Source of the DNA: Antedon mediterranea
Taxonomy: Eukaryota > Echinodermata > Crinoidea > Comatulida > Antedonidae
Direction of reading: 5' to 3'
DNA length: 64,000 bases
NCBI RefSeq assembly: GCF_964355755.1
Contig: NC_092673.1
Location: 16,871,001 to 16,935,000, forward strand
Shown: one piece after another, positions 8,638 through 63,972 of the stretch
How the letters are laid out: each line of letters begins with the position of its first letter
How positions within the stretch are numbered: the stretch's first letter is position 1
The notes under the pieces: generated by a model
Told to the model about the DNA's origin: nothing
The model's input: only the letters and a program-made list of their open reading frames with translations
Databases searched by the model: none
Position numbers and translations under genes: made by a program

Positions 8638-8689
8638 ATAGTTCGATGTGAACGCCACTACTGTTTATTTTGTCTTTAAAGTGATATTT

Positions 8690-24011: not shown

Positions 24012-24313
24012 GTTATCCGCTGAATGCGGATAACTAATAACATAGAAAAAAAAAAAAAAAAAAAAAAAGATCCTGACAATAACAAGAGGTTATCCGCCAA
24101 GTGCGGATAACCAAAAAAAAAAAAAAGATCCTTACAATAACAAGGGGTTATCCGCCAAGTGCGGATAACCAAAAAGATGATGATGATGATTTCGTACAAT
24201 CACAAGGAGTTATCCTGCAACTTTGTTGCGGATAACTAACAAAGAAGATGATGAAGAAAAAAAAAGATATTTACAATCACATGGGTTATCCTGCAACTAA
24301 GTTGCGGATAACC
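24012..24313. repeat. cluster of five GTTATCC hairpins
   Basis: Five stem-loops lie at 24012-24034, 24088-24112, 24146-24170, 24209-24236 and 24284-24313. Four stems are 9-10 bp and perfect or nearly so (GGTTATCCGC/GCGGATAACC), with 5-nt loops such as CAAGT or TGAAT. The last two have the longer TCCTGCAAC/GTTGCGGA form. Each follows an A-run and a leader ending ACAAGG or ACATGG, so the unit is roughly 60-75 bp. The cluster marks the right edge of the satellite domain. Confidence 0.9.
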
Positions 24314-25371
24314 AATTAAAAACCTGCTCCCTCCCTTACCTTACAAAAAATGCTTCTGTCAGTCTATCCACCTAATTATGAACATGGCCTTAAAGAAATC
24401 CTTTTCCAACCTAGGGTCTTTTTGTGCAAACATTTTGCCACAAAATGAAGAGAAATGTAAACAATGTTTTGTTAGTTTTCAAAATCTAAATTGTTTGAGT
24501 AATGCAATTTAAAAAAGAAAGGTAATATGAAATTATTCTTTTCAAACTGAATGCTTTTAAGAAAAGTTCCGTCTTTTATCTTATGACTTTTTTGGAAAAA
24601 TGATTTCTCGTTAAAATATAATATACTAGTAAGTGCTCACAGATGCTTCTCGAATACATAAACTTTGGTAAATAACTGAAAATTGCACTGTACACAAGGC
24701 AAATGAATACAGATATGATGGAATTTATGTAGTCAAATATAATTGTCATCCTGAGAATTACCTTAATGTTGTTTATTACATGGTATTGTTCACCAAATTC
24801 CTGTCTTGGTACATTTGATGATGGGATGGTATCAGGCTTCATGATATCATATGATTTTCATCGAGGCAATATGGTTCAAACTAAATTTGTTATCGTTAAT
24901 ATCTAACTTAACTTAATTATGATATTGGTTTCATTGGGTGTTAAAAATCAGTACTGAAAGTATTTACCAACTTTCTCTACCATTGAGTATAAATTCTAGA
25001 AGTTGCACTTAATTTACTGAAATTTCCCATTACCTAAATTTATATGTAAATTCATTATACTGTACTGCTTATTGGCCTCATATTTTTAACATCTAAACAT
25101 TTGTTTGTACAATTTTATGTAATATGTATTTTATTAAGGTTTACATTTTGTGATTGATATTGTACAGTAAGTAGATTTTAATGATTACTTACATTAAGTA
25201 ATAGGCTAACAATTACTAGATCTGATCCATGGTAATATATTATATTTGTTTTCATTTATCAATAGTTAACAATTAGGATTATTTACCACATTATTTACAG
25301 CAGCAAAAAACAAACAGTTCACATAATGTCTGTTGTCAGTATTTATAAACTTCATTATGATTCCTTTCCAG

Positions 25372-25482
25372 GATGGTGACACTCTATTACATTCATATCT
25401 GGGGAATGAATATACACCTATTACCTTAGAGATAGTGATGTGTCTCATTCAGCATGGGGCACCAGTAGCATTGCAAAATAAG
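25372..25482 (+). CDS. ankyrin cassette exon 1
   Basis: 111 nt, 37 residues, from DGDTLLHSYLGNEY to PVALQNK. It is bounded by TTCCTTTCCAG and GTAAATGT, phase 0 at both ends. It fits one ankyrin repeat: the DGDTxLH turn and first helix, then LEIVMCLIQHGA for the second helix and loop. At 37 residues it is longer than the usual 33; the extra residues sit between the two helices (NEYTPI). It is the first cassette in the window. No upstream coding exon was found in the satellite domain to its left. Confidence 0.85.
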
Positions 25483-25559
25483 GTAAATGTACAGGGATTT
25501 GCTAGTGTAATAAGCTAACATTCTATAGATATGCTGAAGTAAACCATTTAATGAGAGAA

Positions 25560-27249
25560 AAAAGTAAGCACATTAACAAAAATCAAATTTGATGTAAACA
25601 AACCAAATAAAAAAATAACTCAATAGTTTATATGATTTATGATAACAAACAAATTTAAAGTATACAGTTACCTATCACATAACATACATCTTTAATTTTC
25701 TTAATGAACAAAAAAATCTACTTTTTTTATATGTTCAGGTGAATCAGTATAATTTTGTTTACATATTTTTGACCGTAAAACAAATATAAATTGCTCATAT
25801 GTAGCTGTAAAGATAGCAATGATTGACAATGGTCTAAACAACTAAAAATGTTTATGTTAAAAAAATTAATAGAATCTGATTTTAATAAAAAATAATTATT
25901 AATTAAAAACCTGCTCCCTCCCTTACCTTACAAAAAATGCTTCTGTCAGTCTATCCAGCTAATTATAAACATGGCCTTAAACTACATCTGGAGATCCGTT
26001 TCCAACCAGGATCTTTTTGTGAAAACATTTTGCCACAAAAGGAAGAGAAATGTAAATAATGTTTAGCCTTTAGTTTGTGGTTTCCAAAATGCAATTTAAA
26101 AAAGAGAGCTAAAATGAAATTATTCTTTTCAAACTGAATGCTTTAAGAACAGTTCCGTCTCTTATCTTATGACTTTTCGGGGAAAAATGACATTATTAAA
26201 GTTGATATATAAAATTTGATACTAGTAAGTGTCAATAGATGGTTCTTAAATACATGACCTTTGGTAAATAACTGAAAATTGTTTAAGTACAAAGCAAATA
26301 AATACAGATATGTTGGAATTTATGTATAGATTATTAATTGTTAATAACCTGCTCCCGCCCTTTACTTACTTTACAATAAAATACTTCTGTCAGTCTTATC
26401 ACATACAGCCAGTATGAATATGGCCTTAAAGAGATCCTTTTCCAAACAAACATTTTGCACAAAAGGAAGAGAAATGTAAATAATGTTTAGTTTAGTAAAA
26501 ATGTTTGAGCAATGCAATTTCAAAAAGAAATTTAATATGAAATTATTCTTTTCAAACAGTGCCGTATCTTATCTTTTGTCTTTTTGGAAAAAAATTATTC
26601 TATTAAAGTTGCCAGTTAAAATTTGATATACTGGTAATTAAGTGCCCACAGATGGTTCTTTCGAATACATAAACTTTGGTAAATAACTGAAAATTGTCTA
26701 AGTCGCACTGTACACAAAGCAAATAAATACAGATATGATGGAATTTATGTATTCAAATATAATTGTCATCCTGAGAATTACCTTAATTTTGTTTATAACA
26801 TGGTATTGTTCAACAAATTCCTGTCTTGGTACATTTGATGATGGGATGGTATCGGGCTTCATGATATGATATGATTTTCATCGAGGCAAATGATTTAAAC
26901 TAAATTTGTTATCGTTAATATCTAACTTAGCTTAATTTACTGAAATTTCCCATTACCTAAATTTATATGTAAATTCATTAAACTGCTTATTGGCCTCATA
27001 TTGTTAACATCTAAACATTTGTTTGTACAATTTTATAAAATACGTATTTTATTAATGTTCACATTTTGTGATTGATATTATACAGTAAGTAGATTTTAAT
27101 GATTACTTACATTAAGTAATAGGCTAACAATCACTAGATCTGCTCCATATTATATTTTGTTTTCATTTATCAATAATGATAATTAGGATTTTATCACATT
27201 ATTTAGCAGTAATTGTTGTTGTTTGTATTAACAAAAAAACAATTTCACA
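25560..27249 (+). repeat. array unit remnants between cassettes 1 and 2
   Basis: Contains intron of cassette 1, a diverged unit piece from about 25905 (CCTGCTCCCTCCC), and another from about 26345 (CCTGCTCCCGCCC). The exon belonging to one of these is missing, so a cassette seems to have been lost here. No gene other than the cassette array is seen. Confidence 0.6.
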
Positions 27250-27939
27250 AGGCCATGTAAAAAAAAAATTGTTGATCATCCTTTTTTTTTTAAAAAAAGT
27301 CAGGAGGAAGGGAGGCTTTTTTTTTTTTTTTTTTTTATTATTATCTTTAATTTTTTATTATTATCGACTCAGCTTAGACTGGGCCGATACTTTGATCATA
27401 CCATCTCCCTTTCCGGGCTTCCTATCACTGGCGTACACTGTAGGCAACGTAGGCTTATCGCCCACGACGGATTCACCGTCGAACTTCCTCGTGTACAATT
27501 CAACATACAACTCTGATAATGTTACAACAGCCGTAACTTCGCAGCCAAACCAATCTTTAATCGGCGAACTACTACCCTCGCGGGTAATAGAAAGTACCAC
27601 AAAAGACATTTAAGCTGCATAAATACGTATCAATAAAGATCTATTGTTCGCAAATCACGTGTAAAAAGAACCCACGCTGTACAGCAGGCCAGCGAAAAAA
27701 ATAAACAAAATCAAGCTAGATACCCGTATCTTGCACATGCGCATATTGATACTATCAATAGAGGGCCAGATAATCGCGATGAATTTCTGAATTTTGTGAT
27801 CGCGACGACTGATCTGAGGTTGAAAAACGGGATTTTCATCCGGATTTTCACGGTTTAAAAAAAAAAAATAAATAAATGAGGCGGGCCGATTTTCGATGTC
27901 GGGCGAGGACGATCAACAACCTTTTTTTTTACATGGCCT
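27250..27939. mobile_element. TIR element AGGCCATGTAAAAAAAA
   Basis: Inserted just upstream of cassette 2, splitting a sequence that is continuous in other units (AATTTCACATAATGTCTG). The left end is AGGCCATGTAAAAAAAAA followed by TTGTTGATCATCC. The right end is the inverse (GGACGATCAACAACC, then T-run, then ACATGGCCT), giving terminal inverted repeats of about 30 bp. The interior is more GC-rich than its surroundings and carries an 82-codon ORF on the minus strand. The superfamily was not determined because I could not read a clear target duplication. Confidence 0.7.
27361..27609 (-). CDS. unrecognised 82-residue ORF in TIR element
   Basis: The reading frame starts MSFVVLSITREGS and ends near GMIKVSAQSKLSR before a TAA stop. 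It has balanced amino-acid use and a GC content well above the AT-rich neighbourhood. The stop is followed by AATAATAAAAAATTAAAG and a long A-run, which looks like a polyadenylated transcript copied back into DNA. I do not recognise the family. It may be a processed gene fragment or host exon captured by the element at 27250-27939. It could also be chance, since it is short. Confidence 0.4.
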   Translation of the reverse strand: MSFVVLSITREGSSSPIKDWFGCEVTAVVTLSELYVELYTRKFDGESVVGDKPTLPTVYASDRKPGKGDGMIKVSAQSKLSR

Positions 27940-27989
27940 AATGTCTGTTGTCAGTATTTATAAACTTAATGATTATTATTCCTTTCCAG

Positions 27990-28100
27990 AATGGTGACAC
28001 TCCATTACATTCATATCTGGGGAGTATATATATTGCACCTACCTTAGAAATAGTGACATGTCTCATTCAGCATGGGGCACCAGTAGCATTGCAAAATAAG
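27990..28100 (+). CDS. ankyrin cassette exon 2
   Basis: 111 nt, 37 residues, NGDTPLHSYLGSIYIAP then TLEIVTCLIQHGA, phase 0-0, with intact CCTTTCCAG acceptor and GTAAATG donor. It has the classical TPLH motif. The element at 27250-27939 sits only 50 bp upstream of the exon. The branch-point region is therefore close to foreign sequence, and splicing efficiency may differ from the other cassettes. Confidence 0.85.
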
Positions 28101-30640: not shown

Positions 30641-31100
30641 GCTGGTTTTCATTAGGTGTTAAAAATTAGTACCGAAAGTATGTACCAACTTTCTCTACCA
30701 TTGGGTAAAAATTATAGAAGTTGCACTTAATTTACTGAAATTTCCCATTACGTAAATTTGTAAATTCATTAAACTGCTTATTGGCCTCATATTTTTAATA
30801 TCTGAACATTTGTTTGTACAATTTTATGAAATATGTATTTTATAACGTTCAAATTTTGTGATTGATATTGTACAGTAATTAGATTTTGATGATTACTTAC
30901 ATTAAGTAATAGACTAACAATCACTGAATCTGATCCATGGTAATATATTATATTTTGTTTTCATTTATCAATAATGATAATTAGGATTTTATCACATTAT
31001 TTAGCAGTAATTGTTGTTGTTTGTATTAACAAAAAAACCCAATTTCACATAATGTCTGTTGTCAGTATTTATAAACTTCATGATTATGATTCCTTTCCAG

Positions 31101-45972: not shown

Positions 45973-46009
45973 AATGGTGACACTCTATTACATTTATATG
46001 TGAGGAGTT
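45973..46009 (+). pseudogene. ankyrin cassette exon 10, truncated
   Basis: The acceptor is intact and the exon begins NGDTLLHLYVRS. After about 36 nt it is fused to intron sequence of another unit (TTTTCATTGGGTGTTAAAAAT), losing the second helix and the donor. The break fits unequal recombination between units. Confidence 0.8.
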
Positions 46010-46424
46010 TTCATTGGGTGTTAAAAATCAGTACCGAAAGTATTTACCAACTTTCTCTACCATTGAGTAAAAAATTCTAGAAGTTGCACTTAATTTACTG
46101 AAATTTCCCATTGCCTAAAATTCATTAAACTGTTTATTGGCCTCATATTTTTATTTGCTGAACATTTGTTTGTACAATTTTATGAAATATGTATTTTATT
46201 AATGTTCAAATTTTGTGATTGATATTGTACAGTAAGTAGATTTTAATGATTACTTACATTAAGTAAATAACAATCACTAGATCTGCTCAATGCTAAGATA
46301 TTCTATTTTGTTCTCATTTATCAATAGTCGACAATTATGATTATTGACCACATTATTTAGCAGTAATTTTTGCTATGGTTTGGGTTGACAAAGAAAACCC
46401 AAATTCACATAATGTTTGTTGTCA

Positions 46425-46951: not shown

Positions 46952-47036
46952 GATGGAAATACACCTGTCTCAGTTTTAGAAAATAACGGGTGGATAAGGG
47001 ACCAGGGTAAAACTGAAATTTTAAACTTCTTTAAAA
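46952..47036 (+). CDS. ROCO gene, terminal half-ankyrin exon
   Basis: Starts DGNTPVSVLENNG in phase 0, so it accepts any cassette directly, and ends ILNFFK plus one base (phase 1). It keeps the ankyrin opening but diverges after the first helix. It is not part of the amplified units, since its flanks are unique. Confidence 0.8.
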
Positions 47037-50000: not shown

Positions 50001-53000
50001 ATTGTGTTATTCCACTGACCATTTGAATTGAAAACCACTTCCAAGTAAGTATACGATTTAACAACTTCCATTTTAATGTTTATGTAATACCATTTTTCAT
50101 ATTTCCTTAATTTTTCACCTTTTTTAAATACCATTATTTTTTATTTGTTTACATTTACACTAAGACCCCATATGTCACAAAATATTTCCAATATAATTAT
50201 TAAATTTTGTAAGCCTTTACTGTGTCTGCAAATAGTAATAAATCAGCAGCATATAGCAGATGGTTTATAAAGCAATCCGGCTCGAGTTATCTTTATTGTG
50301 TTTTGACAAACAGGTATAAAAACAAAATTGATTTCTGGTCATAAAACAGAATATAAATAAAAACATTCAAAAAGTTCAAAGCATATTGAAAACTTACGAT
50401 AGATGTTTTTAATCGCATTTCCTACTGCCTAATTCTGAATCATACCAGTTATTCATTTCAGAATTACTTTATTTGCACTTTACCCATTGAAACCATGCTA
50501 ATCAACCATATGTTGCTATAATTTCAACGATTTAGATTCAGGATCGCTGTCAAAAAATGTTGCATTTACGTCTATATGTTTGGATGAGTTTGAGTTCCAC
50601 AATTTTTTTTGGACATAATTTAAATTAATAACTGTAGTTGTTAACTGTATACATTGTAGTTAAAAATATACATTATTATTATAGTATATTTAGAATGAAT
50701 GATTGCTTGTACACAGTCACCCACAAGTGTTTGTAAGGCTTTGTATCACACAGAGCCTTATATAACCTTATACCATTGAAAAAAAAAAGCTATGACTTTT
50801 AATATAGTGTTTTTTATGAAAATATATAATATGTAATATTTTTGTTTTGTGCATTTTTTTAGATTTACCAAGTACTGTTGATGAGCAATTTCAAACACAA
50901 TTTCAGAAACAGACAAGTGACGAACAGAAAACAAAACTTCTTAAGCCAGAGAGTGGTAAGTTTAAGAATAAGAGCTGCTGTATGTTTTATGATTGTATCT
51001 ATATATAATTTAACAGAATTGTGATTAAAATGGGATTTCAGTAAAGAGAGAATTAGACGCTAATGTTATTTAAAAAATCATTTCTGAGCAGTACTGTAAA
51101 AAGGCGAAAAAGGGTGCAACTGATAACAAATAACAAATGGAGAGATTTTATTTATCATAAATAACAGTTGATTGTTTCCATTTAAAATACTGTAATAATG
51201 GAATGAAGCTAGTTTGCAGATTTATGTGGCATGCTTGCTTGATTTTTGCTTGATTGTTGATTTTTAGGTTATAATTATGCATTATCATGCGATCACGCGA
51301 TCTACGCGCGATTTAATGAAATCACGTTTGTAATCTTCACAAGCATGAATCACTTTTTTAAACAAAATTTGGTACTCATAAATTTCAGGTCATTATTTCA
51401 TCATATGACAATACAATTACGTGCGTAGCGCATATAACGCATGCGTACGCGCGCTTAAAATTTCCAAAATCGTCAACATTTATTTTCGATGAAATTAGAC
51501 ACTGCTTGTTAAACGTTAATGCGCACTCTTTTTTGTCCGATTTCTGTTGTACAACCTTTCTTTATATAATATCATCATATTTTATTCACTTTTCAACTCG
51601 AATTTGCGTTTTCTTACGAGCATGTCAAAAGTGACAGGCTACGCACGTGTAAGTTAACAAAATGGTGAAAATATGCTAAATTTAAAAAATAATATAGATC
51701 GTAAGAATGCTCGGGAACACATATTTTTTATTTCATTTTCTTGAAGTGTATGTATCATATGTATGATTTATTATGAAATTAAGAGTACAAAAGTTGATAA
51801 AGTCATCATTAATTGCATTTTAAATTAAAAAAAATTTATTTCGACAATCAAAAATTTATGACATTTTCTTAGGCCGAAATAACAAACTTTAACTTTCTTC
51901 CTTCAAAATAAAAGTTCATATATTAAAGTTAAAAGTATATAGAATACAATGTGGTTAATGATATTATACGCAGAGGGATCTTTAATCGGATTGTGATACC
52001 GGCTATTGTATTCGCGTTAGCAAGATCCTATATTATAAATAATTAAAGATTCTGAGAAAATCAATCAATCAATATATCTTTTAAAAATCAATTATCTTTA
52101 TTTAAATCAATGCATATAACCTAATTCTAGTTTTTTTTTACTTTATTTACTCCAGATGTTTAAAAAATCTATTAAAATCTTGATTCAATTTTCAGATATT
52201 GCTGCACGTGAATTAGATTTTCAGAAAGCATACAATGAAGCCTTGAAAGATGGATCCGTTCCAGTCAATCTTGGAATGCTTAAAGTGATTGGGCAAGAAG
52301 GAGTGGGTAAAACATGCCTCATCAATGCATGTCTTGGAAAAGAGTAAGTAGTAGTAGTAGGACAGTGAAATGAACATTACAAAATATTTGTGAGTCAACT
52401 AAGAATTACAAACCAGCCAACTTTATTGATTTGTTTTTGATAAACTACCACTTTTTAAATATTGCAGTGATAGATAACAATAGTTGAATAAAAACGTCTA
52501 TAAATATATAAATCGGTTTCTACATTAATCATAACACCATCAAATTTTCTATTGATTATAGAATTTACTTTTAGGCTTGTATTTAAAAAAAAGATCATAC
52601 GAATGGTCGGATAACTTGACTTCCTAAATGTATAATTAATGAATATATTAAAATGGTTTTGAAGTAAAAGGAGAAAAGTGCATGTTTTACAATACCTGTA
52701 CTTAAAATGACTGAAGTTCATAATTGGTTTCAAATATTTTTGCCAGATTTGAGGAAAAGCATGTAGTTACAGATGGCATAGCGGTAATAAGAACAGCAAG
52801 CACAACATGGACAGAGGCTAAAGCTGATAGTGGTAAACATGAATACATTTAGCATATTACTCTTCCCACCATCATACGTTATGTAACAATATTATCAATA
52901 ATAATTATTATCATAGACACAGACAAGTTCACAATGAAATGGAGACATAGAATTGAATTCAATGCATACAACTGTAGTATGTGTCACATACATTACAATT

Positions 53001-56000
53001 GTTACTCTATGATCCCTTTATAACGCGCAAGTTACTGTATGTTACATTTTATGATGATGTACTGTAATTGTAATTTTACATTGACAGTGGTAAAATATCC
53101 AAAGTATAGTCACATATGAACGTATCTACTGAAATAATATGTACACACTTTCTCTTTCTCTACAGGTAATACAATACAACAGTATACAAAAATGGTCACT
53201 GACAAATTGAGAAAAAAGAAAACTGTAAACGTATGTCAGTAATAGTGTAATGAAAACGGGTCTAGGACAACTACCCCCTGGACAGCTACCACCCGGACAA
53301 TCACCCTCCTAGGACAACTACCCTCTTAGGACAACTACCCTCTTAGGACAATTACCCTCTTAGGACAATTACCCCTAGGACAACTACCCCCTAGGACAAC
53401 TACTAACTTCAAAACATAGGGAGAGAGATTGATCTTAAATGAAAGACTGTTTGATTGACTGGTGCAGCTAGGAAAACTGTATGTTCCTAGATTTATATAC
53501 GGCATCTTCATGTCACACAAGAATAAAATAAGCCACCCCTTTATTTTTCAAGATTGGAATACATTTTAATAATTTTATCAATTCTCGTTTAATGTAAAAT
53601 AACTGCTGACGATACGCATATTAAAAAATTGAAAAGCTTTCATATAAGATCAATCTCTCTCCCTCTGTTTTGAAGTTCAGTAAGTTTTACAAGATCGTAA
53701 TTATAACCTACGGTGTAGGTGTCATGATATAGGTGTGGCTGTTCAGAGGGTGTTGTTTTCCTAGTAGACCGGCAGCCCAGAGACATTTGGTTAGATGAGC
53801 TAGGTACCAATATCTGACTATTTGAGTGTGTTGGGGGTCACTTGAAGTGAATGAAAATGGGAGTCTGCCGGGTACCCCCTGCTGCGTCTAGACCGGGGGG
53901 ACCCCGAAACGTGCTAAAAAATCGGCACAGGTTAGATGAGAGAGATACCACCTAATTTTACCACCATGGGATGCCCATTGGCATCCTTATAACAGTATCA
54001 CAAACGACAGACTTTTTCTCTGCTGCAAAAGGCCCGCCAGACCCCCCGAGGGAGGGCCTAAAATGGGGTTAGCATAGATGAGTGAGGTACCACTCAAAAT
54101 CAATTCCAAACGAACAAGTTGTGTTCATACAATACTAAATGGATAACAACAGACTAATTGTCTGCTGCACCGCAAGTGCCAGACACCCTAAAGTTAGGCC
54201 CCCCTTCCCCCAACTAACCCAGCTTAGATATTGTAGATACCACCAGCAACCAATGTTATATGATTTAGCACATGTAGGCAATACCAAATGACCTATAATT
54301 ACAGACTATCTGAACACTGCCCTGGCCCTGGCAGACCCCTCTAAAGTTAGACTAGAGACCCCTCTTTCCCCAACTAGCCCAGCTTAGATATTGTAGATAC
54401 CACCAGCAACCAATGTTATATGATTTAGCACATTGTAAGCAATCACCAAATGACCTATTACAAACTATCTGTACACTGCCTTGGCCCTGGCAGACCCCTC
54501 TAAAGTTCGACTAGAGACTCCATTCCCCCAACTGGCCTAGCTTAGATATTGTAGATACCACCAGCAACCAATGTTATAATTATGATTTAGCACATTGTAA
54601 GCAATATCAAATGACCTATAACAGACTATCTGTACACTGCCTTGGCACTGGCAGACCCCTCTAAAGTTCCCCCATTTACCCCAAGTATATCCTTAGATAT
54701 TGTAGATACCAACAAAAAAACCACACAAAACAACATATTTAATTGAATAAAGTTTAACTTTAATCGAACTAACACAAAACAATTGAAAATATATCACATC
54801 AATGACGATAAAATGACCATTACCATTTTAAAGGGAAAAATAGTTTAAGAGTTTCACTTCAAACTTATATAAGCCAAATATAAACAAGTACGGATTCGAG
54901 TAAATTTAGCATTCCTGCTAAGAATTGTGAGGATCTGGAATTCCTTGCCTTTGAATGTCAAAGATACATTCGTCTGTAACTCTTGCAACCTATTTTAAGA
55001 GAAAGCTTAGTAATCACCTTAATCAAATTCAGGATTGTAGTAACTTAATCAAAAGTGATTTGATTAATTAATAGTTGGTAATTTTAAATGCTGTATATTA
55101 TAATCTTAATCCTCTATATATATTTATATATATAAATCCAAAGGCAAATAACTGAAAAAATGACAATGCTGTGGGTATCAGTGGCTGAATCTCAATAAAG
55201 ATACAAAAAAAAAGTGAAAAGCTAAATCAAAAGGCTAAAGTAAAACAGCCAGAAACGTTAGCAGAGCTTTCGGGCAACACTAGCCCTTCATCATTGCAAG
55301 TGAAGGATAAGAGCTGGCAAGTGCTGCCTGGGTGGACAGGAATAAAAGAAATACAACAAAAGGAGACAGGGTGGAGTCTGAATAAGAGTAGAAAACAAAG
55401 AAGGTAGCTTGGTAGAGATACAGTATAAACAATTTTGGAATGAAACTAAACACGGCCAACAGCCATAAGTCGCGTGCTAAAACGCATAGTGATACCGGAC
55501 CGACAGACAGACCGACAGACCGACCGACCGCCGACATAGTGAACTATAGAGTCGCGTCCACGCGACTAAAAACAGCTTAAATGGTGGTTAATATTGATAC
55601 TTAAATTTAGGTAGACAATGGAATAATTTTACCAACCTGGGAGTATGTTTCTAATGTTAAGTACAAAAGGTTTTGTGGTTTTAAGTTGTAATTCCCAGTG
55701 GTTTTCCTTGTCTTTGCAAGTTTTGTCGCTCCATTTGACACATGGAATATTGCAATAACTCTGAAATTTGTTATCGAGTGACCAGATGAATTAAAATGTT
55801 CGGCTACAGGTTGAACAAGCTTTAATGTGTTGATAGCTGATCTGTGTTGTGTCATTCTCATACGGAGAGTGTTTTTGGTTTCTCCGACGTACTGTTTGCC
55901 ACAAATATTACAGTATATGAGATAAATGACGTTTTTGGTTAGACAATTAATTGATTGTCTTATCCGAAAAATGTGGCCAGTTTGGTTACTCTTAAATTTT

Positions 56001-59000
56001 TCAGTAGAATCAACCAATGAACAAGTTTTGCAAGATTTGCCGCAAAGGTGACTGCCCAAATTTTGACTGTCATGAGAGTTAATTTCACTCTTACATTTGG
56101 ATCTGACTAATATATCACGAAGGTTGGGAGGTCTACGAAATGCAATAATGGGTGGTTCCGGAAAAACAGTCTTGAGACGTTCTGTGGACTGTAGAATGGG
56201 CATATGTTTCTCAATAAATTAATAGCCCCGTAATGGAGGCAACCTAGGTTGATAGGTTTGTAATTTCTATTCCGGAGATGTCCGGTTAGTTCTTCGGTAC
56301 GATTCTGAAAATCTAAATCTGAAGAACAGATACGTCTGATAGGTAATGCTTTACTGTTCGGTATGTTTTTAGTACAATGTTGGGGATGACAACTGCTAGG
56401 GAGCAGGTACATATTTTTATCAGTGGGTTTACGGAATAGGTCAGTTTTGAGAGTACCATTTTCTATGGTCACTATAGTGTCCACAAAATCAACGCTACTA
56501 GTGGATTTGGTAACTGTAAATCTTAGGATCGATGGAGTGTTTTTTTTTACCATCACAGAAACAGATTTTGCCACCTTATCCGCAATTTCCGGGGTGGGTT
56601 CCGTTGTGAGTTTACGATATATAATGAAGCTGTCTTAAGGATTCCTCTTAATAAAATTTGATGTCCATAGCAACAGTGGCAGAACCTTTATCAGCGGGTT
56701 TAATGATGATATCATTACGCTGACGCAATTTGGCAATGGCCTGCCTCTCTTGTTTTGAGATTGTCACGTTTATCTGGACTCGGGACGTAGTTTTGTACAT
56801 CCTCCTCAATAGCCTGGATAAATGTTTCTAAAGCTGGACAACGATTTTTAGGTGGATTCCAGGAACTTTTTGGTTTAAATTTGTTAACGTTGCCTTCGTT
56901 TTGCGTGGTGCTGCTGTCTGAATCAGCAAAATATTCACGTAATCGTAATCTTCTAGAAAAAGACTCTATATCCAAAGATAGTTGTTGTGCGCCGACCTGC
57001 CTTGGTTTTGGGCAGAATTTAAGTCCTCGGGAAGGAAGTTTTTTCTCTCCTTCGGAAAGTCGACAATTTCAACAACTGAATCAGAGGTGTTGCTCTGATT
57101 CTTGTTATATGTCCCAACGAACCTTCTGCAGGGTTTCCTAAAAGCCCTGAAGTCATCCGAAGGTAGAGTCATTTGTGTTGAAATGACCAAGTCTGCATGG
57201 TAGACCAAATTTGTGATGTTCCCTTCGGGCCATTATCGTTGATTGTTTACGGCAGTCATTGGCGATAATCCTGAGTTTGTTTTGAAACTAGGATGCAGGA
57301 AGTTCTCTTTTCAACTTCTTAGTTCTAGAGTGAATTTCAACGTCAAACTCAGTGAGGATTTTGCGGCAATTGTCAATTTGGATCTCATTGAGATCTCTAA
57401 TTTTGTTCAAATACCTTTTTTAATAGATACAGTACTACATATCTACATAAATAAAGTACATAAAAAAAAATTATATATATTTATAATTTTTTTTTTAAAT
57501 ATTTTTTTCGATCGAGATACGGTATTGTTCAGTCTATCTGAAGATCGTTTAACGTGAAACACCGTGTAGTAGACGTCCGTGTTCCATCTACTTTATAAAA
57601 ATATATATTCGCTCTTGATTCCAATTGAGCACGTTTGCAGCCTCAACGCATCTATATAAGACTTGCACTGATGAAGGGCTAGTGTTGCGCGAAAGCTCTG
57701 CTAACTTTTCTGGCTGTTTACTTTATCGTTTTGATTTAGCTTTTCGCTTTTTTTTTGTATCTCCATTGAGATCCAGCCACTGATACCCACAGCATTGTCA
57801 TTTTTTCAGTAATTTGCCTTTGGATTTATAAATATATATATATACATATGAATACAGGATTAAGATTATAATATACAGCATTTAAAATTACCCACTATTA
57901 ATTAATCAAATCACTTTAGATTAAGTTACTACCATCCTGAATTTGATTAGGGTGATTACTAAGCTTTCTCTCAAAATATGTCCAAGAGTTACAGACGGAT
58001 GTATCTTTGACATCCAAAGGCAAGGAATGCTAAATTTACCCGAATCCATACTTGTTATATATATTTGGCTTATAATTATATAAGTTTTAATTGAAACTCT
58101 TAAACTATTTTCCCCTTTAGAATGGTAATGGTCATTTTATCGTCATTGATATATTTTCAATTGTTTTGTGTTAGTTCGATTAAAGTTAAACTTTATTCAA
58201 TTAAACATGTTGTTTTGGGTGGTTATTTTTTTGCTGCTGGTGGTATCTACAATATCTAAGGTAGGCTATATACTTGGGGTAAATGGGGGAACTTTAGAGG
58301 GGTCTGCCAGTGCCAAGGCAGTGTACAGATAGTCTGTTATAGGTCATTTTGTATTGCTTACAATGTGCTAAATCATAATTATAACATTGGTTGCTGGTGG
58401 TATCAACAATATCTAAGCTAGGCCAGTTGGGGGAATGGAGTCTCTAGTCGAACTTTAGAGGGGTCTGCCAGGGTCAAGGCAGTGTACAGATAGTTTGTAA
58501 TAGGTCATTTGGTGATTGCTTACAATGTGCTAAATCATAACATTGGTTGCTGGTGGTATCTACAATATCTAAGCTGGGCTAGTTGGGGAAAGAGGGTTTC
58601 TAGTCTAACTTTAGAGGGGTCTGCCAGGGCCAGGGCAGTGTTCAGATAGTCTGTAATAGGTCATTTGGTATTGCTTACAATGTGCTAAATCATATAACAT
58701 TGGTTGCTGGTGGTATCTACAATATCTAAGCTGGGTTAGTTGGGGGAAGGGGGGCCTCTAGTCTAACTTTGGGGTGTCTGGCACTTGCGGTGCAGCAGAC
58801 AATTAGTCTGTTGTTATCCATTTAGTATTGTATGAACACAACTTGTTCGTTTGGAATTGATTTTGAGTGGTACCTCACTCATCTATGCTAACCCCATTTT
58901 AGGCCCTCCCTCGGGGGGTCTGGCGGGCCTTTTGCAGCAGAGAAAAAGTCTGTCGTTTGTGATACTGTTTTAAGGATGCCAATGGGCATCCCATGGTGGT

Positions 59001-62000
59001 AAAATTGGGTGGTATCTCTCTCATCTAACCTGTGCCGATTTTTTAGCACGTTTCGGGGTCCCCCCGGTCTAGACGCAGCAGGGGGTACCCGGCAGACTCC
59101 CATTTTCATTCACTTCAAGTGACCCCCAACACACTCAAATAGTCAGATATTGGTACCTAGCTCATCTAACCAAATGTCTCTGGGCTGCCGGTCTATAGGG
59201 GAATAGCAGTTGGATTAGAGGGTAGTTGTCCTAGTAGGGTAGTTGTCCTAGGGGGTAGTTGTCCTAGGGGGTAGTTGTCCTAGGGGGTAGTTGTCCTAGG
59301 GGGTAGTTGTCCTAGGGGGTAGTTGTCCTAGGGGGTAGTTGTCCTAGGTGGGAGTTGTCCTAGGTGGGAGTTGTCCGGGTGGGAGTTGTCCTAGTGGGAG
59401 TTGTCCTAGGGGGTAGTTGTCCTAGGGGTAGTTGTCCTAGGGGGTAGTTGTCCTAGGGGGTAGTTGTACTAGGGGGTAGTTGTACTAGGGGGTAGTTGTA
59501 CTAGGGGGTAGTTGTCCGGGTGGGAGTTGTCCTAAGGGGTAATTGTCCGGGTGGTAATTGTCCGGGTGGTAATTGTCCGGGGGTAGTTGTCCTAGGGTGG
59601 TAGTTGTCCGGGCGGTAGTTGTCCGGGGTAAAGTTGTCCGGGCGGTAGTTGTCCGGGCGGTAGTTGTCCGGGCGGTAGTTGTCCGGGCGGTAGTTGTCCG
59701 GGCGGTTGTTGTCCGGGCGGTAGTTGTCCGGGCTGTAGTTGTCCGGGCGGTAGTTGTCCGGGCGGTAGTTGTCCAGGGGATAGTTGTCCTAGGGGGTAGT
59801 TGTCCGGGTGGAAGTTGTCCTAAGGGGTAATTGTCCGGATGGTAGTTGTCCTAGGGGGTAGTTGTCCTAGGGGGTAGTTGTCCTAAGGGGTAATTGTCCG
59901 GATGGTAGTTGTCCTAGGGGGATACTTGTCCGGATGTTAGTTGTCCTAGAGGGATCATTGTCTGGGTGGTAGTTGTCTGGGTGTTTGTTGTCCGGGTGTT
60001 TGTTGTCCGGGTGTTAATTGTCCGGGTGGTAGTTGTCCGGGTGGTAATTGTCCGGGTGGTAATTGTCCAGGGTGGTAATTGTCCAGGGTGGTAATTGTCC
60101 GGGCGGTAGTTGTCCGGGCGGTAGTTGTCCGGGCGGTAGTTGTCCGGGCGGTAGTTGTCCAGGGGGTAGTTGTCCGGGGGTAGTTGTCCGGGCGGTAGTT
60201 GTCCGGGCGGTAGTTGTCCGGGCGGTAGTTGTCCGGGCGGTAGTTGTCCAGGGGGTAGTTGTCCAGGGGATAGTTGTCCAGGGGATAGTTGTCCAGGGGG
60301 TAGTTGTCCAGGTGGTAGTTGTCCAGGTGGTAGTTGTGCAGGGGGTAGTTGTGCAGGGGGTGATTGTCCAGGGGGTAGTTGTCCTAGGGTGGTAGTTGTC
60401 CTAGGGTGGTAGTTGTCCAGGGGGTAATTGTCCTAGGGGGTAGTTGTCCTAGGGGGTAGTTGTCCGGGTGCTAGTTGTCCTAGGGGCTAGTTGTCCGGGG
60501 GTTAGTTGTCCGGGGGTTAGTTGTCCGGGTGGTAGTTGTCCGGGTGGTAGTTGTCCGGGTGGTAGTTGTCCGGGTGGTAGTTGTCCGGGTGGTAGTTGTC
60601 CGGGTGGTAGTTGTCCAGGGGGTAATTGTTCCGATACGAATGAAAACATAAAATGAATAAAGTAGTACCTACAGGACTATTGCAAACCAGTCACTTAGGC
60701 TTTCTTTCTAAATGAATCAATGATGCATTTATGAGCGGCTATTTCATTTTTTTTTTTGCTTCAATCCTTTTAAAATTTACTCCAAAAATTAATTTGGTTT
60801 TGCTTTTGAGAGTAAATAATATTAGTTTTTCTTATATTAAATTGTAAACAATACTGTATTTAACTTTGAATAAACATTTATTTCATTTTTATATCCATAT
60901 ATTGTTTTTGTTTTATGTGTCAGATTGACATGAAACCACTTACAGATGATGATGATGATGATGAGGATGGTATTGTTGTTGACTACAATAACGATGGCAA
61001 CAATGATGGTATGTAACTTTCCCTTAAATTTTAATTATAATTACACAAGACAAAAACATTCTAATTATTCTTACATTTTTGTAGTAAAAGCATTAATAAA
61101 TAAGTTTAACATGGCAGCGGCCATCCCACTCCTAGACAGTCCAACTTATACAACGTAATTTTGAAAACTACAACCATTTTTCTATATACATACAACGTAC
61201 ATTTCTAGTTGAACAAAAACATTTTTCTAAACTTTCTATTATTTAAAAGTCGAAGATAGCCAGGTCTCGGGTCCATTCTATTGTCGCCACAGATTGATAT
61301 CTTCATCAGTACTTCTATAAATGGATGATTAGGTGGGAACACGAACGCTAGTTGATCATACCCAGTACCGTTTTGATCGTACGATTAATCGGGAAACCAC
61401 CTCACGACATAGTCGAAAGACGCTGTACATGCAGGCTTGATGGGCATGTTTCCTAGTTAGCAAAGTTAAACAAAGATGAACTAAAACACTTAATTAAAAC
61501 CTTAAAAGGGCCTTACAAAGATGCTTATTTTTTTGTATGAATCTAGAAGAATCAAAGTGAATTCACAGTCTACACCTACTATATAATATACATAAATATA
61601 TACTGGGCTTATACAAATGTGCAGATTAATAGTTTGTACATATTAAAGTATCCTTTCATATCTACCATCCCCTTTCACTTACCTTCCCCTTTCACTTACC
61701 TTCCCCTTTCACTTACCTTCCCGGTGCGAAAGCTCATATGATGATAATGAAGACAACTATACTCATAGTAACTTTTTAACTGACTGATTAAATATGATGA
61801 ATTGAAATTTTTGAAATAAAATTATGCTTGTTACGTCGTTTGTGGAATGACCAAAAAATTTGTTTCCACTACAGGTACTGATACAGCTACTCAAGCTGTT
61901 CCATTTGATACAGATCAACAATTAGATAAGGATGTAATCAAGAAAGTTGAGGAAAATAAGGAGGAGACTTTGGAAGAAACATTCAACATCTGGGACCATG

Positions 62001-63972
62001 GGGGACAATTAATATACCATGGTCTACATCGGGTAAGTAGGTTTCTGTATAGACTAACATGATTGTATGGCCAAGGTATAGTTGGTCTCCCGTCGTGCTG
62101 ATCTGGTAGGCGCTTCACTGCTGGCTGCTGTTGGTCAGTGTCAGTGGTCAAGCTCACTTTTCAGTTAAGCTTGAGGACAACTATTAATACCTTTACCTTT
62201 TACCTTTATGAAAGTCTTTATTATATTAATATGTATTGTCCCCTGAAAAAATAATTCTTAAATATTTTTTTTTTAATATTCCATTTTAATGTAACATAAT
62301 AGTTATCCACTTTGACCACAAATTGGATCGAAAAAAAAAATGTATATACCTGAAAAAATGTAATTTAAAGCAAAAAATTGTCAAATTGGCTACCAGCCAA
62401 TGGATTTTTATATTTTGTCAATTTATAAGTGAAAACATTATTTTTTTCGTTTTTTTTTTCAATGGAAGTGATTAACTTTATTAAAACTACAAAATAAATA
62501 TTCAAATTCTGATTTAATTAATCTTCATTTTTCATGTTTTTGGGGGACAATACATCTTTAAGGTCCACATACAATTAAAAATAATATTTGTTCATATGTT
62601 GTCAAAAGGCCTTCAAGAATATTAATCAGTCAATATTTAAATATTTTTGCAGATGTTCATGACACTTCAAGCACTATATATTGTTGTGTTTGATCTCAGT
62701 AAACCCTTGGATGATCTTGCTACTTTCATTGATTCATCTGGAGTAAGTATTTCTAGAGCATGGCAGCAGTAAGGTATTGTGATTGAACAAGTCTTTTATA
62801 AGAACAGTTTTTAAAAACTAAGCATTTCAAGTTTAACTGTGGTTAATTGTTCTGTAATTCTTTTTCAGAGGAAATTTCAACATCATTGGACCAATCTCCA
62901 GTTCATATTATCTTACATGCTGTCAGTTTATTCTCATAGTCGTATTGTGGAAGAAGACGAGGAGAATGAAGTTGACAAACCAACTATCCTTATTGTGGGT
63001 ACACATAAGGGTAAGCTTGGTAAGACAGAAAAACAGCAAAATGATGAGGTTAATACTTCTTTTGTTTCTATATTATTATAAATAGCCACAACCAAAGATA
63101 CATTGCAGTTGTAACTGTTTTTAAATATTACTTTAAATAAATTACAAAATTGACACATTCTTATTATGCGTAAACTGTTATTAAAATTATATACAAACAG
63201 GCAGAAAAGGTGTTTAAAATTATTCAAGATGTGCTTAAAACTAAACCATATGGAAATCATGTCTACCACAAATATTTTGCCATTGAAAACAGCCAACCAA
63301 CTACAGATAAGAGCTTTAGTGATCTCAAACAAGTTATTGATACGCTTATGAATGCTTTAGAACAGCCTTTTCCTTTAAAGTGGATGCGTTTTCGATGTGA
63401 TCTACATGATCTAAGAGGAAAAAAACAGCCCTCCTTTTCTTTGTGTTCTTTAAAAGAGGTAAATGTTATTTGTTTTGTTTACATTTTTTGAAATATTAAG
63501 TCGCAAGTATCTATCAAGTATCTAAAAAAAAAAATTTACGTTTCTAAATATAAGTACCCTTTAATTAAAAAATGTCCATAGACTAGCCAATTAGATTACA
63601 ATATCCAAAATCAAATTTTCATCTCAGATATTTGCTGCCATTGTTTTATTTATAAATTGTTTGTTTGAAAATACTGAGGTAATTAGCCATTGAAATTGAA
63701 TATTTCAAACTATTTTTTCATGTAATACCCACATTTTTTATTTAATTCTGAATAATACTAATTATTGTTTCTTTTAGATAAAAATTCTGACAAGTAAGAA
63801 TGGTATTGTTGAAGAAAAAAACAAATCAGTCCTGCTTAACTACTTGTACGATATTGGTGAAATTGTTTACATGCCTGACAACAAATTATTAAGAGATAAA
63901 GTCGTGCTAGATCCGATGAGGCTGGTTGAAATTGTCACCAAATTTGTAACTGTGGTTCCCCCAAAATATCCC
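46952..63972 (+). CDS. ankyrin-Roc-COR (ROCO family) protein, partial; 11 exons
   Basis: Eleven exons with AG/GT borders join without a phase conflict into 481 codons: 46952-47036, 50863-50955, 52196-52343, 52747-52832, 53166-53230, 60924-61008, 61875-62032, 62653-62742, 62869-63048, 63201-63458 and 63778-63972. Residues 1-28 are a final half ankyrin repeat, 29-90 a polar linker, about 86-400 a Roc GTPase domain, and about 400-481 the start of COR. GTPase motifs are G1 GQEGVGKT (92-99), G3 WDHGGQ (227-232) and a G4-like GTHKG (314-318). In Roc proteins such as DAPK1 and LRRK1, this module couples GTP binding and dimerisation to signalling. Ankyrin cassettes upstream splice in at phase 0. The N-terminus was not found, and the C-terminal effector domain is past the window. 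The G4 aspartate is Gly. Confidence 0.88.
47405..47640 (-). mobile_element. LINE 3' end fragment
   Basis: Read on the minus strand, it carries CAAGTCCCTTTGGGTTTC and then GATGAATAAAGAGATTGATT, the type of 3' tail found on CR1/L2-like LINEs. It is truncated, and its upstream side is cut by the TA-flanked element at 47645. Confidence 0.5.
47645..48493. mobile_element. TA-flanked mariner-type element, copy 2
   Basis: Same ends (CCGTATATTTCGGTGTATAA / inverse) and nearly the same interior as 41093-42707, without the nested insertion. TA at 47643-47644 and 48494-48495. ORFs on the minus strand here are also found in copy 1 and show no transposase motif. Confidence 0.85.
48496..49539. other. intron, nothing further recognised
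   Basis: AT-rich intron of the ROCO gene. A 60-codon plus ORF at 48622-48804 has no recognisable feature or suitable splice partners. Confidence 0.5.
49540..50300 (-). pseudogene. decayed LINE ORF2 (RT C-terminal part)
   Basis: On the minus strand, near 50220-50250 is DLLLFADT, corresponding to the catalytic FADD region with the second Asp lost. It is followed by a CDIWGLSVNVNK segment (RT motif D/E style) and YTYLEVVFNSNGQW. Then come a VAVKSELGRLSL block and a final TGYGYVWYDQKVEN, which resemble the C-terminal region of Jockey/CR1-type LINE proteins. In-frame stops and frameshifts break it. It lies in the intron between ROCO exons 1 and 2, in the opposite orientation. Confidence 0.7.
50301..50862. 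other. intron, no element resolved
   Basis: AT-rich. It probably holds more of the eroded LINE in its first part. It ends in the GCATTTTTTTAG acceptor of exon 2. Confidence 0.5.
50863..50955 (+). CDS. ROCO gene, linker exon
   Basis: 93 nt, phase 1 in and phase 1 out. It encodes the polar, Gln/Lys-rich segment LPSTVDEQFQTQFQKQTSDE and on to LLKPES. No domain recognised. It connects the ankyrin part to Roc. Confidence 0.78.
50956..52195. other. intron with a CG-rich, satellite-like patch
   Basis: Around 51280-51660 the intron contains words such as TACGCGCGC, GCATGCGTACGCGC and TACGCACGTGTAAG, unlike its AT-rich flanks. They resemble, inverted, the CGCGCGTAA blocks of 10936-24310. The relation is suggestive only. 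Nothing coding is seen. Confidence 0.4.
52196..52343 (+). CDS. ROCO gene, P-loop exon
   Basis: 148 nt, phase 1 in and 2 out. It encodes DIAARELDFQKAYNEALKDG then the strand MLKVIGQEGVGKTCLINACL. GxxxxGKT is the phosphate-binding G1 motif of P-loop GTPases, with the following INAxLG typical of Roc domains. Confidence 0.88.
52344..52746. other. intron, nothing recognised
   Basis: AT-rich, no repeat or ORF of note. Begins with a short TAG triplet run after the donor. Confidence 0.5.
52747..52832 (+). CDS. ROCO gene, switch I region exon
   Basis: 86 nt, phase 2 in and 1 out, encoding FEEKHVVTDGIAVIRTASTTW then TEAKADS. Its place right after G1 and the T-D-G-I pattern match the segment of Roc domains that precedes the switch I threonine. 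Which Thr plays that role cannot be fixed here. Confidence 0.8.
53166..53230 (+). CDS. ROCO gene, short Lys-rich exon
   Basis: 65 nt, phase 1 in and 0 out, encoding NTIQQYTKMVTDKLRKKKTVN. Two donors are possible, at 53225 (GTAAAC) and 53231 (GTATGT). Both keep the frame, giving a difference of two residues. Confidence 0.72.
53262..53406. repeat. GACAACTACC minisatellite, left array
   Basis: About nine units of around 16 bp of the type TAGGACAACTACCCCC. It is the same family as 59215-60635 but on the opposite strand. It begins about 30 bp after the exon at 53166-53230, inside the intron. Confidence 0.9.
53407..53764. other. intron segment between minisatellite and inverted arm
   Basis: Unique sequence without a partner on the other side of the palindromic structure. 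It contains ATAGGGAGAGAGATTGATCT and, near 53655, the related inverted AGATCAATCTCTCTCCCTCT. No gene seen. Confidence 0.5.
53765..55301 (+). repeat. left 1.5-kb inverted arm of Penelope-like element
   Basis: Reverse complement of 57661-59195, nearly the same length (1537 against 1535 bp) and highly similar. It begins TAGACCGGCAGCCCAGAGAC. It contains three to four diverged repeats of about 180 bp with TTAGATATTGTAGATACCAC and CTGGCAGACCCCTCTAAAGTT. Its inner end carries a hammerhead-like motif. Penelope-like elements commonly have long terminal repeats in either orientation, and this arm is read as such. Confidence 0.88.
55258..55295 (-). ncRNA. hammerhead-ribozyme-like motif, minus strand
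   Basis: On the minus strand the sequence reads ATGATGA, A, GGGC-TAGTGTT-GCCC, GAAA, GC-TCT-GC, TA(A). This matches the order of a minimal hammerhead: core 1, stem II, GAAA, short stem III and a CUA cleavage triplet. Stem II is a perfect 4-bp helix. The first core base is A where C is required, so this copy is probably inactive. Stem I pairing is not evident. Hammerhead motifs are known in the terminal repeats of Penelope-like elements. Confidence 0.6.
55302..55606. other. 3' region of the Penelope-like element
   Basis: Non-coding sequence between the arm and the end of the coding relic. It contains a short GACCGACAGAC tandem run (about 55498-55530). Confidence 0.5.
55607..57420 (-). pseudogene. 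Penelope-like retroelement, RT core deleted, GIY-YIG retained
   Basis: Coding relic on the minus strand. The N-terminal part (57420-56640) has the basic RTKKLKRELP stretch, then NFLPEDLNSAQNQ, FSRRLRLREYF and IIIKPADKGSATVAMD, a Penelope RT motif. It continues YRKLTTEPTPEIADKV, then near 56545 jumps to the RT thumb (VDFVDTIVTIENGTLKTDLF, FRKPTDKNMYLLPSSCHP). The catalytic RT motifs with the YADD aspartates are missing, so reverse transcription by this copy is impossible. The C-terminal part (56203-55607) has a CGKSCKTC cluster and a GIY-YIG endonuclease: LIYCNICGKQYVGETKNTLR. Stops and frameshifts also interrupt it. It sits antisense in a ROCO intron. Confidence 0.85.
57421..57660. other. 5' region of the Penelope-like element
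   Basis: AT-rich, with an A/T run and CGATCGAGATACGG. No ORF in the element's sense. Confidence 0.5.
57661..59195 (-). repeat. right 1.5-kb inverted arm of Penelope-like element
   Basis: Inverse of 53765-55301. It holds the same internal repeats of about 180 bp and ends in CTGCCGGTCTA. A 73-codon ORF at 58888-59109 lies in both arms and shows no family match. Confidence 0.88.
57668..57704 (+). ncRNA. hammerhead-ribozyme-like motif, plus strand
   Basis: CTGATGA, A, GGGC-TAGTGTT-GCGC, GAAA, GC-TCT-GC, TAA. The two conserved core boxes (CTGATGA, GAAA) are intact here, but stem II has one mismatch. Stem III has two pairs plus the A-U step, and the cleavage triplet would be CUA. It is inverted relative to the copy at 55258-55295, as the arms are. 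Confidence 0.62.
59215..60635. repeat. GGTAGTTGTCC minisatellite, right array
   Basis: About 90 units in two main versions: 16-bp GGGGGTAGTTGTCCTA at the left and 15-bp GGCGGTAGTTGTCCG further right, with mixed variants. Because 15 is divisible by three, long repetitive ORFs (GSCPG, VVVRA, GQLPP) appear in several frames. They are by-products of the repeat. This is the complement of the short array at 53262-53406. It lies in the same intron, upstream of the exon at 60924. Confidence 0.95.
60636..60923. other. intron, nothing recognised
   Basis: AT-rich. It ends with a pyrimidine-poor acceptor (TTTTATGTGTCAG). Confidence 0.5.
60924..61008 (+). CDS. ROCO gene, acidic exon
   Basis: 85 nt, phase 0 in and 1 out: IDMKPLTDDDDDDEDGIVVD then YNNDGNND. 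Six Asp codons in a row come from a pure GAT microsatellite. It is placed between G1 and G3 of the Roc domain, where it forms an acidic insertion. Support is from phase, borders and ORF. The residues themselves match no motif, so this is the least certain exon together with 53166-53230. Confidence 0.68.
61009..61874. other. intron with a 17-bp minisatellite
   Basis: At 61669-61723 the unit CCCCTTTCACTTACCTT occurs three times in tandem. No other element was resolved. Confidence 0.6.
61875..62032 (+). CDS. ROCO gene, G3/switch II exon
   Basis: 158 nt, phase 1 in and 0 out. It has an acidic stretch (KKVEENKEETLEETF) followed by NIWDHGGQLIYHGLHR. DxxGQ is the G3 motif; WDxGGQ followed by xYxxLHR is characteristic of Roc domains, with Gln at the position often catalytic in Ras. 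Confidence 0.9.
62033..62652. repeat. intron holding the 424-740-type repeat
   Basis: The part at 62285-62395 is the second copy of the dispersed repeat found at 620-720. At 62075-62215 a more GC-rich piece ends in ACCTTT-type repeats and might be a SINE, but I could not find RNA polymerase III boxes. Confidence 0.45.
62653..62742 (+). CDS. ROCO gene, Roc exon after switch II
   Basis: 90 nt, phase 0-0: MFMTLQALYIVVFDLSKPLD then DLATFIDSSG. The strand YIVVFDLSK is the beta strand after switch II in Roc domains (xYLVVFDLSxxL). Confidence 0.9.
62869..63048 (+). CDS. ROCO gene, G4 exon
   Basis: 180 nt, phase 0-0. It includes HHWTNLQFILSYMLSVYSHS, an acidic loop, then PTILIVGTHKGKLGK. VGTHK is the Roc version of the G4 guanine-recognition motif, normally followed by Asp; here it is Gly. 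An earlier GTAAGC donor at 63011 exists. With the normal acceptor it would hit a stop, so the donor at 63049 (GTTAAT) is preferred. Confidence 0.85.
63201..63458 (+). CDS. ROCO gene, Roc-COR junction exon
   Basis: 258 nt, phase 0-0. It has EKVFKIIQDVLKTKPYGNHV, then HKYFAIENSQPT, ending with PFPLKWMRFRCDLHDLRG. The last block corresponds to the Roc-to-COR boundary (P-L-x-W-x-x-F) in ROCO proteins. Confidence 0.88.
63778..63972 (+). CDS. ROCO gene, COR domain exon
   Basis: 195 nt, phase 0-0, encoding LLNYLYDIGEIVYMPDNKLL and RDKVVLDPMRLVEIVTKFVT. The L-x-x-L-x-x-G-x-I and VxLDPxxL patterns are COR signatures. A GTAAGTAG donor follows, so the gene continues beyond the window. Confidence 0.9.

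Follow-up and report, generated by a model that had tools for sequence, protein, structure and literature searches.

A clustered crinoid gene family with arrays of single-ankyrin exons ahead of a Roc-COR GTPase: candidate intracellular receptors diversified in the germline

Introduction

The protein DAPK1 is ordered as ankyrin repeats, then Roc-COR, then a death-fold tail; members of the DAPK family have a protein kinase domain at the N-terminus and a death domain at the C-terminus. In arthropod Dscam, one domain is encoded by tandem exons of which each excludes the others. Among known systems, the one closest in design to the crinoid locus described here is the LRR-ROCO family of the brown algae Ectocarpus and Saccharina, in which each LRR is encoded by one 72-bp exon in phase 2 (PMC11378527). 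The exons of these genes are described as shuffled and as giving several splice forms, with diversifying selection acting on what is presumed to be the ligand face, and the proteins are proposed as immune receptors (PMC11378527). The ANK, TPR and WD repeats of fungal NLRs are described as near identical, changing in number and evolving in concert, with positive selection on the ankyrin repeats mostly on the concave face (PMC4986451). Expansions of DED/TRADD-N receptors in bivalves, Branchiostoma and Amphimedon combine a death-fold domain with variable repeats that include ankyrins (PMC8195603). DARPins bind through randomised positions of their concave surface, as a review states (PMC8229355).

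The locus of the comatulid crinoid Antedon mediterranea shares features with each of these. As in the brown-algal genes, a ROC-COR GTPase is joined to a solenoid with one symmetric exon per repeat, in tandem. The crinoid repeats, unlike the brown-algal ones, are ankyrins (Pfam Ank) on exons mostly of 105-111 nt in phase 0, and the crinoid genes have a DED-like tail, whereas only LRR-ROC-COR is reported for the brown algae. The two families are most likely convergent, because their lineages are unrelated. The order of ankyrin repeats, Roc-COR and death-fold tail is that of DAPK1; the crinoid tail is death-effector-like rather than a death domain, the exons read contain no kinase, and there are dozens of genes with hypervariable repeats. 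Dscam likewise has tandem near-homologous exons within one gene, but each crinoid exon adds a repeat, and any number stays in frame. Near-identical repeats, changes in repeat number, concerted evolution and apparent positive selection are shared with the fungal NLRs, whose switch is a NACHT or NB-ARC ATPase in place of the Roc-COR GTPase; one repeat per exon is a crinoid feature, with no such description in the available text on the fungal genes (PMC4986451). In the bivalve, Branchiostoma and Amphimedon proteins the DED precedes the variable C-terminal region, whereas the crinoid DED-like exon is C-terminal to COR (PMC8195603).

Among the sources considered, repeat receptors with shufflable exons are described for brown algae and, without the exon structure, for fungi. 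If an animal lineage had arrived independently at such a design on this GTPase chassis, convergence would be cleanly exemplified, and the locus bears on how echinoderms, which are without antibodies, could diversify intracellular sensing. Listings from searches of the open-licence PMC literature contained no paper on this crinoid family, and none on an animal Roc-COR gene with arrays of single-ankyrin exons.

Results and Discussion

Nine ankyrin exons in one array

The window is the whole stretch of 64,000 nucleotides that was analysed (C4:16871001-16935000), and the genome searched comprises 354 Mb in 18 contigs. Coordinates are collected in Table 1. The original prediction recognised nine intact exons of 105-111 nt, in phase 0 at both ends and with intact splice sites, and exon reads together with Pfam Ank matches bear this out. 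Each intact unit of the array contains one ankyrin exon (n=9 intact), and intron stretches of the units include copies that are up to 100% identical. All nine cassettes are 105, 108 or 111 nt long, open and in phase 0 at both ends, and all have the acceptor CTTTCCAG and the donor GTAAAT. Four of the nine (exons 1, 2, 8 and 9) were scanned with Pfam, and all four match Ank with E-values of 0.0003-0.018, one of the four being above the Pfam cut-off; the match covers positions 1-33 of the 33 in the profile in three of them and 2-33 in the fourth. A regular expression for canonical ankyrins found no match in the window because the helix-1 sequence of the cassettes (LHSYL) is unusual.

The 15 bases 5' of eight of the nine cassettes are ATGATTCCTTTCCAG, in frame, and ATTATTCC occurs at the second cassette. 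Those eight therefore have a potential start codon, and one NCBI gene model, P0011, starts at such a codon ahead of a cassette. The start of P0011 is untrustworthy, since its first five residues are a read-through of the acceptor. The 15-base element is probably simply the acceptor tract rather than an internal start.

Table 1. Features of the window gene. Positions are those of the window unless a contig is given; aa, amino acids.
Feature	Position	Strand	Remark
Array of tandem repeat units, ~1.55 kb each	24310..46320	+	Repeat families D1-D20; start as in the original prediction
Ankyrin cassette exon 1, 37 aa	25372..25482	+	Pfam Ank match
Ankyrin cassette exon 2, 37 aa	27990..28100	+	Pfam Ank match
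Ankyrin cassette exon 3, 37 aa	31101..31211	+	
Ankyrin cassette exon 4, 36 aa	32673..32780	+	
Ankyrin cassette exon 5, 36 aa	35336..35443	+	
Ankyrin cassette exon 6, 37 aa	36870..36980	+	
Ankyrin cassette exon 7, 36 aa	38433..38540	+	
Ankyrin cassette exon 8, 36 aa	39981..40088	+	Pfam Ank match
Ankyrin cassette exon 9, 35 aa	43163..43267	+	Pfam Ank match
Broken tenth cassette: ~14 first codons, then repeat-unit intron	45973..46014	+	
C-cap exon, last degenerate ankyrin repeat; in phase 0, out phase 1	46952..47036	+	In-phase join
Linker exon, ankyrin domain to Roc	50863..50955	+	Also in locus L032 and NCBI model P0011
Roc exon, P-loop GQEGVGKT	52196..52343	+	
Roc exon, G2 motif TDGI	52747..52832	+	
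Roc exon (NTIQQYTKMVTDKLRKKKTVN)	53166..53230	+	
Roc exon, acidic insert	60924..61008	+	Frame breaks if left out
Roc exon, WDHGGQ (G3)	61875..62032	+	
Roc exon	62653..62742	+	
Roc exon, VGTHKG (G4 position)	62869..63048	+	
Roc end / COR start exon	63201..63458	+	
COR-A exon	63778..63972	+	Gene goes on past the window
DED-like exon, after further COR exons, 3' of the window	C4:16941278 (locus L046:6278-6868)		

The gene 3' of the array

From the first cassette to position 63972, 20 exons with AG/GT borders join into 808 codons with no stop, which agrees with the predicted in-phase connection between the cassettes and a Roc-COR gene. The exons are the nine cassettes, the C-cap, the linker, seven Roc exons, one at the Roc/COR border and one of COR-A. 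The gene is a ROCO GTPase, with a Roc domain whose G motifs (GQEGVGKT, TDGI, WDHGGQ and THKG) were read directly and a COR domain after it. An earlier version of 19 exons (774 aa) matched Pfam Ank_4 (1e-36), Roc (1.3e-14) and COR-A (1.4e-8). The Roc match of that version scored 54.9 bits against a cut-off of 27; that of COR-A scored 35.2 bits, just under its cut-off of 35.3, and the gene leaves the window at position 83 of the 143 in this profile. The gene extends beyond the 3' end of the window and probably beyond its 5' end as well. A GC donor at 52795 in the first Roc model was rejected, since sister loci place the donor at 52832 and add the exon at 53166-53230.

Pfam matched no kinase domain among the window exons from the array onward, and neither NACHT nor NB-ARC among the window exons; the switch domain is Roc. 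The one exon read 3' of the window (L046:6278-6868) does not match the Death domain and matches DED instead (E 6e-6), with 26.8 bits, below the Pfam cut-off of 35.9. A PDB sequence search with this exon gave one match, at E 0.34, and a protein search with a 151-residue COR piece gave none.

Other elements lie in and around the gene. A minisatellite of ~92 copies of a 15-base unit occupies 59220-60629 inside a Roc intron. Open frames of up to 203 codons on the minus strand at 55610-57068 look, from a motif, like a putative broken Penelope-like retroelement. A large imperfect palindrome extends from 1390 to 8638, with arms at 1390-4598 and 5412-8638 that are 93-99% complementary in six segments.

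A cluster of related loci

The peptide of exon 2 has at least 150 scored matches in the genome (519 candidates), with 72-100% identity among the matches listed. All 150 listed matches are on C4 between 15.97 and 19.66 Mb, a cluster of ~3.7 Mb. Adding 16 cassettes from an exon scan of 20 fetched loci and the window brings the cluster to at least 166, in support of the amplified bank of single-ankyrin exons that had been proposed for this locus. The 150 matches form 25 arrays when the single match at 18051665 is merged with the array at 18038216, and 26 when it is counted apart. Counted over the window and 18 of the 20 fetched array loci, 127 of 134 copies of the exon's 3' core lie in open exons with splice sites; the exon at L036:372, included in the 127, is cut off at its end. 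Given the matches across the cluster and the open exons around these cores, the cassette pattern is not due to chance.

Genome-wide, 76 matches to the Roc P-loop exon were obtained, and in 14 the protein is identical to the query; 40 stop-free copies are in the cluster, three further cluster matches with stop codons being excluded from this number. Matches to the COR exon number 117 and are spread over several chromosomes. The cluster contains 39 of these, and the cluster counts take in no COR or DED matches from other parts of the genome. In compact sister loci the exons are spaced ~270-330 nt apart. A near-identical copy of the window array is found 1.79 Mb away. These two copies, and the broken cassette of the window, are what might be expected from an assembly artefact or a cluster of relic pseudogenes, but frames, splice sites and phases are intact over 20 exons and many loci, and the two array copies differ by insertions and flank bases, so this explanation is scarcely credible. 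The array is real, in frame and part of a large family, with an excess of amino-acid changes where binding is expected.

Two loci have runs of near-identical cassettes. Four near-identical cassettes stand in a row at L032:3060-3980, all NGDTLLHSYLWSVRTP, and another four at L044:8561-9537, distant from L032, of which three are NGDTLLHSYLWSVRTP and one is DGNTLLHSYLWSVRTP. Both runs are probably fresh unit amplification. Lengthened loops are seen at L035:6075 and L040:8332 (minus strand), in cassettes of 40 and 41 residues.

Gene order within the cluster

Of the 20 fetched loci, nine (one of them partially) have an N-cap exon (KHLVEALSRNDLKTIKQICKTQPDLLKSINE) ahead of the array, with its end in phase 0, and nine have a C-cap exon 3' of the array, as does the window. 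The N-cap has 41 matches in the genome, 39 in the cluster; the counts of array neighbours do not include the ones at C4 13.99 Mb and C9. Among the matches listed, none of the 25 arrays is without a same-strand N-cap in the 60 kb upstream. Within 60 kb downstream there is one at 13 of the 25, the nearest at 34 kb, as expected for the next gene. An upstream N-cap together with a Roc P-loop within 40 kb downstream is found for 18 of the 25; the remaining seven are without a P-loop over that distance, and some of them may be incomplete or relic. For the window gene itself, the N-cap candidate is weak (69% identity) and 56 kb upstream, and its 5' end is therefore uncertain; the 10 kb that adjoin the window on this side contain none.

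A COR exon lies within 25 kb downstream of 39 of the 40 cluster P-loop exons and within 25 kb upstream of 7. Within 15 kb of the 39 COR exons, a DED-like exon follows in at least 16 and precedes in at least 3, among the matches listed. In NCBI model P0016, COR is connected to a homologue of the DED-like exon, and NCBI annotates protein P0013 of Anneissia japonica with Roc, COR-A and DED. That the DED-like exon might be the N-terminal part of the next gene was considered and rejected, since the 16 against 3 of 39 and P0016 place it C-terminal to COR.

At the other end, two array exons (the last two of locus L043) are joined in P0011 with the C-cap, the linker and Roc. Modelled with AlphaFold2, this protein has helix pairs for two stacked repeats and the C-cap, with pLDDT of 70-85 in this block; its mean pLDDT is 41, and it is confident for the ankyrin part only. 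The model of P0016 has a mean pLDDT of 57 and low confidence in the DED region (44-67).

Substitution among the cassettes

Comparisons between cassettes used a set of 124 exons, obtained from 135 found by removing eight of the duplicate array, one of low score, one at a locus edge and one without the motif. The position table rests on 101 distinct repeat proteins from an earlier set of 120 exons, from which too strict a search pattern had excluded five, window exons 4 and 7 among them. The positions of greatest entropy are 1, 11 and 12 and those of the loop after 12, followed by 3, 8, 34, 21, 5 and 36, and the other alignment columns are near invariant. In the P0011 model, helix 1 of the second repeat comprises positions 5-11 and helix 2 positions 17-25. 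With the repeat register, this model would place most of the variation on the hairpin, helix 1 and the loop between the helices. The variation falls mainly at positions that correspond to those randomised in designed ankyrin binders, and for this reason the arrays are a candidate natural library of binders.

Amino-acid-changing differences exceed silent ones. In 33 disjoint pairs whose introns are less than 2% diverged, pN is 0.074 and pS 0.028, a ratio of 2.67 (bootstrap 2.18-3.55); these are simple pair counts that ignore recombination inside exons. All pairs of the 124 cassettes give a ratio of 2.06, and 1.06 on the conserved codons alone. Where introns are 1-2% diverged (25 pairs, 1.2%), the hot codons have 41% amino-acid-changing and 11% silent divergence, and the amino-acid-changing divergence of the remaining codons is 4.4%. 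The 10 pairs with introns 0.1-1% diverged have 83 amino-acid-changing and seven silent changes, and the 11 pairs with identical introns have two exon changes altogether; at the scale of these most recent copies diversification is not visible. Window exons 3 and 6 differ by five amino-acid changes and no silent change, while their introns differ at 6 of 297 bases upstream and 0 of 300 downstream. The cassettes thus vary in the manner of a recognition domain, as was originally proposed, with changes concentrated at hairpin, helix-1 and loop positions, and the pN/pS counts indicate diversifying selection of the brown-algal type at the presumed ligand-face positions.

The P-loop exon of 18 array-linked genes served as a control and has a pN of 0.047, a pS of 0.195 and a ratio of 0.24 (153 pairs); nine disjoint nearest pairs of the same exon give 0.62 (20 against 10 changes). 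A first Roc control, on seven of eight best-hit loci (L010 left out), was discarded, its pN being 0 by construction as the loci had been picked for identity. The control of 18 genes supports the recognition reading more weakly than the first one did, in the same direction. The COR exon has a pN of 0.013 and a pS of 0.050 in seven of eight best-hit loci, a sample biased to conservation (L024 was left out for a codon indel). The caps also lean to amino-acid change, with pN 0.101 against pS 0.058 for C-cap exons (n=10) and 0.037 against 0 for N-cap exons (n=6), both from all pairs, which are not independent. The excess is therefore not strictly confined to the cassettes.

These values bear on whether the family is an ordinary tandem expansion of a structural ankyrin protein, produced by unequal crossover and drift with no part in recognition. 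Tandem units with nearly identical introns, the presence of recent identical copies and an all-pairs ratio of 1.06 at the conserved cassette codons, no departure from neutrality, fit such an origin. It is nevertheless improbable, as amino-acid-changing differences outnumber silent ones ~2.7-fold and cluster at few codons while the P-loop exon stands at 0.24, and as 127 of the 134 exon cores remain in open exons.

Exon and intron histories

Distances between exons are uncorrelated with distances between their flanking introns (Spearman 0.005 over 7,626 non-independent pairs), and exons and introns therefore have separate histories. The nearest exon neighbour is also the nearest intron neighbour in only 29 of 124 cassettes. 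For ten of the 124, a near-identical exon exists between introns that are clearly different, and the cassette nearest to them by intron carries a different exon. Comparison of these sequences suggests an exchange of units in which introns are homogenised and exon variants retained.

Variation packed into a small number of codons, next to others that hardly vary, would also be produced by hypermutation targeted to the cassette exons, in the germline or somatically. Against this, the window array and its recent duplicate differ at 1 of 876 exon bases (eight exons) and 11 of 6,396 flank bases, so that exons mutate no faster than their surroundings. Variation at codon positions 1, 2 and 3 is 0.47, 0.42 and 0.22 in the hot codons, as compared with 0.06, 0.03 and 0.04 in the core codons, and third positions of hot codons varying half as much as the others point to selection. 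Hypermutation is hence a very improbable source of the variation. A diversification targeted to adenine, as in DGRs, was rejected because the changes are not confined to A.

Stacking of the repeats and proposed function

The reading frame survives any number of cassettes, as predicted, since the exons are symmetric (0-0) and stand between caps that face the array in phase 0. The further suggestion of a Dscam-like bank, read as the use of one exon out of many, finds no support here: each exon adds a complete repeat between the phase-0 caps, as stacked repeats would require, and P0011 stacks two. Combinatorial splicing in a skip-or-include form, by which cassettes would be variably skipped or chosen and each locus would give many receptors, agrees with the nine symmetric window cassettes and with the phase of both caps toward the array. 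Multiple splice variants are reported for the brown-algal ROCO genes, in which each LRR has its own exon (PMC11378527). We consider such splicing unlikely for the crinoid genes, as the splice-site sequences are alike in the nine cassettes and none is marked as optional, and as P0011 does not pick one of the last two L043 array exons but has both, stacked, ahead of the C-cap. Phase, caps, the single repeat per exon and P0011 together argue for full stacking of the repeats.

We infer that the window gene probably belongs to a large crinoid family of intracellular receptors of the form N-cap-ANKn-C-cap-Roc-COR-DED-like, diversified in the germline and with stacked repeats. The diversity that these sequences demonstrate is in the germline, where the exons number at least 166 and the genes run to dozens. 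From its sequences the cluster looks like an animal-built toolkit of many sensor proteins made from interchangeable repeat exons. Self-contained repeat exons in phase 0 would let arrays grow, shrink and swap by unequal crossover or conversion with the frame intact. Selection would keep the repeat scaffold and the Roc-COR switch constant and diversify residues on the side expected to face the target. All exons of an array would most likely be spliced in together to form a solenoid, whose specificity would depend on which variants are stacked. A bound target could in turn act on the Roc-COR GTPase as a switch, so that the DED-like tail would become exposed for signalling in cell death or immunity. 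Ligand binding, GTPase switching and an immune role are suggested by the families to which the domains belong. A more far-reaching possibility, which we consider doubtful, is that single cells express different cassette stacks from the same loci through combinatorial splicing or somatic exchange of exons. If true, this would amount to an anticipatory intracellular receptor system on a GTPase-DED chassis.

Related genes elsewhere in the genome

More distant groups of Roc, COR and DED-like exons are located on C3 at 19-25 Mb and ~12 Mb, on C1 at 2.2-3.4 Mb and on C5 at 12-14 Mb. They may be other expansions in the same genome, and none of the 150 listed cassette matches falls in them. NCBI model P0024 of Antedon has the linker exon type, a precomputed match to Pfam PF00791 (ZU5) and a tail like the DED-like exon, without Roc, and is possibly a domain-swapped cousin of the family.
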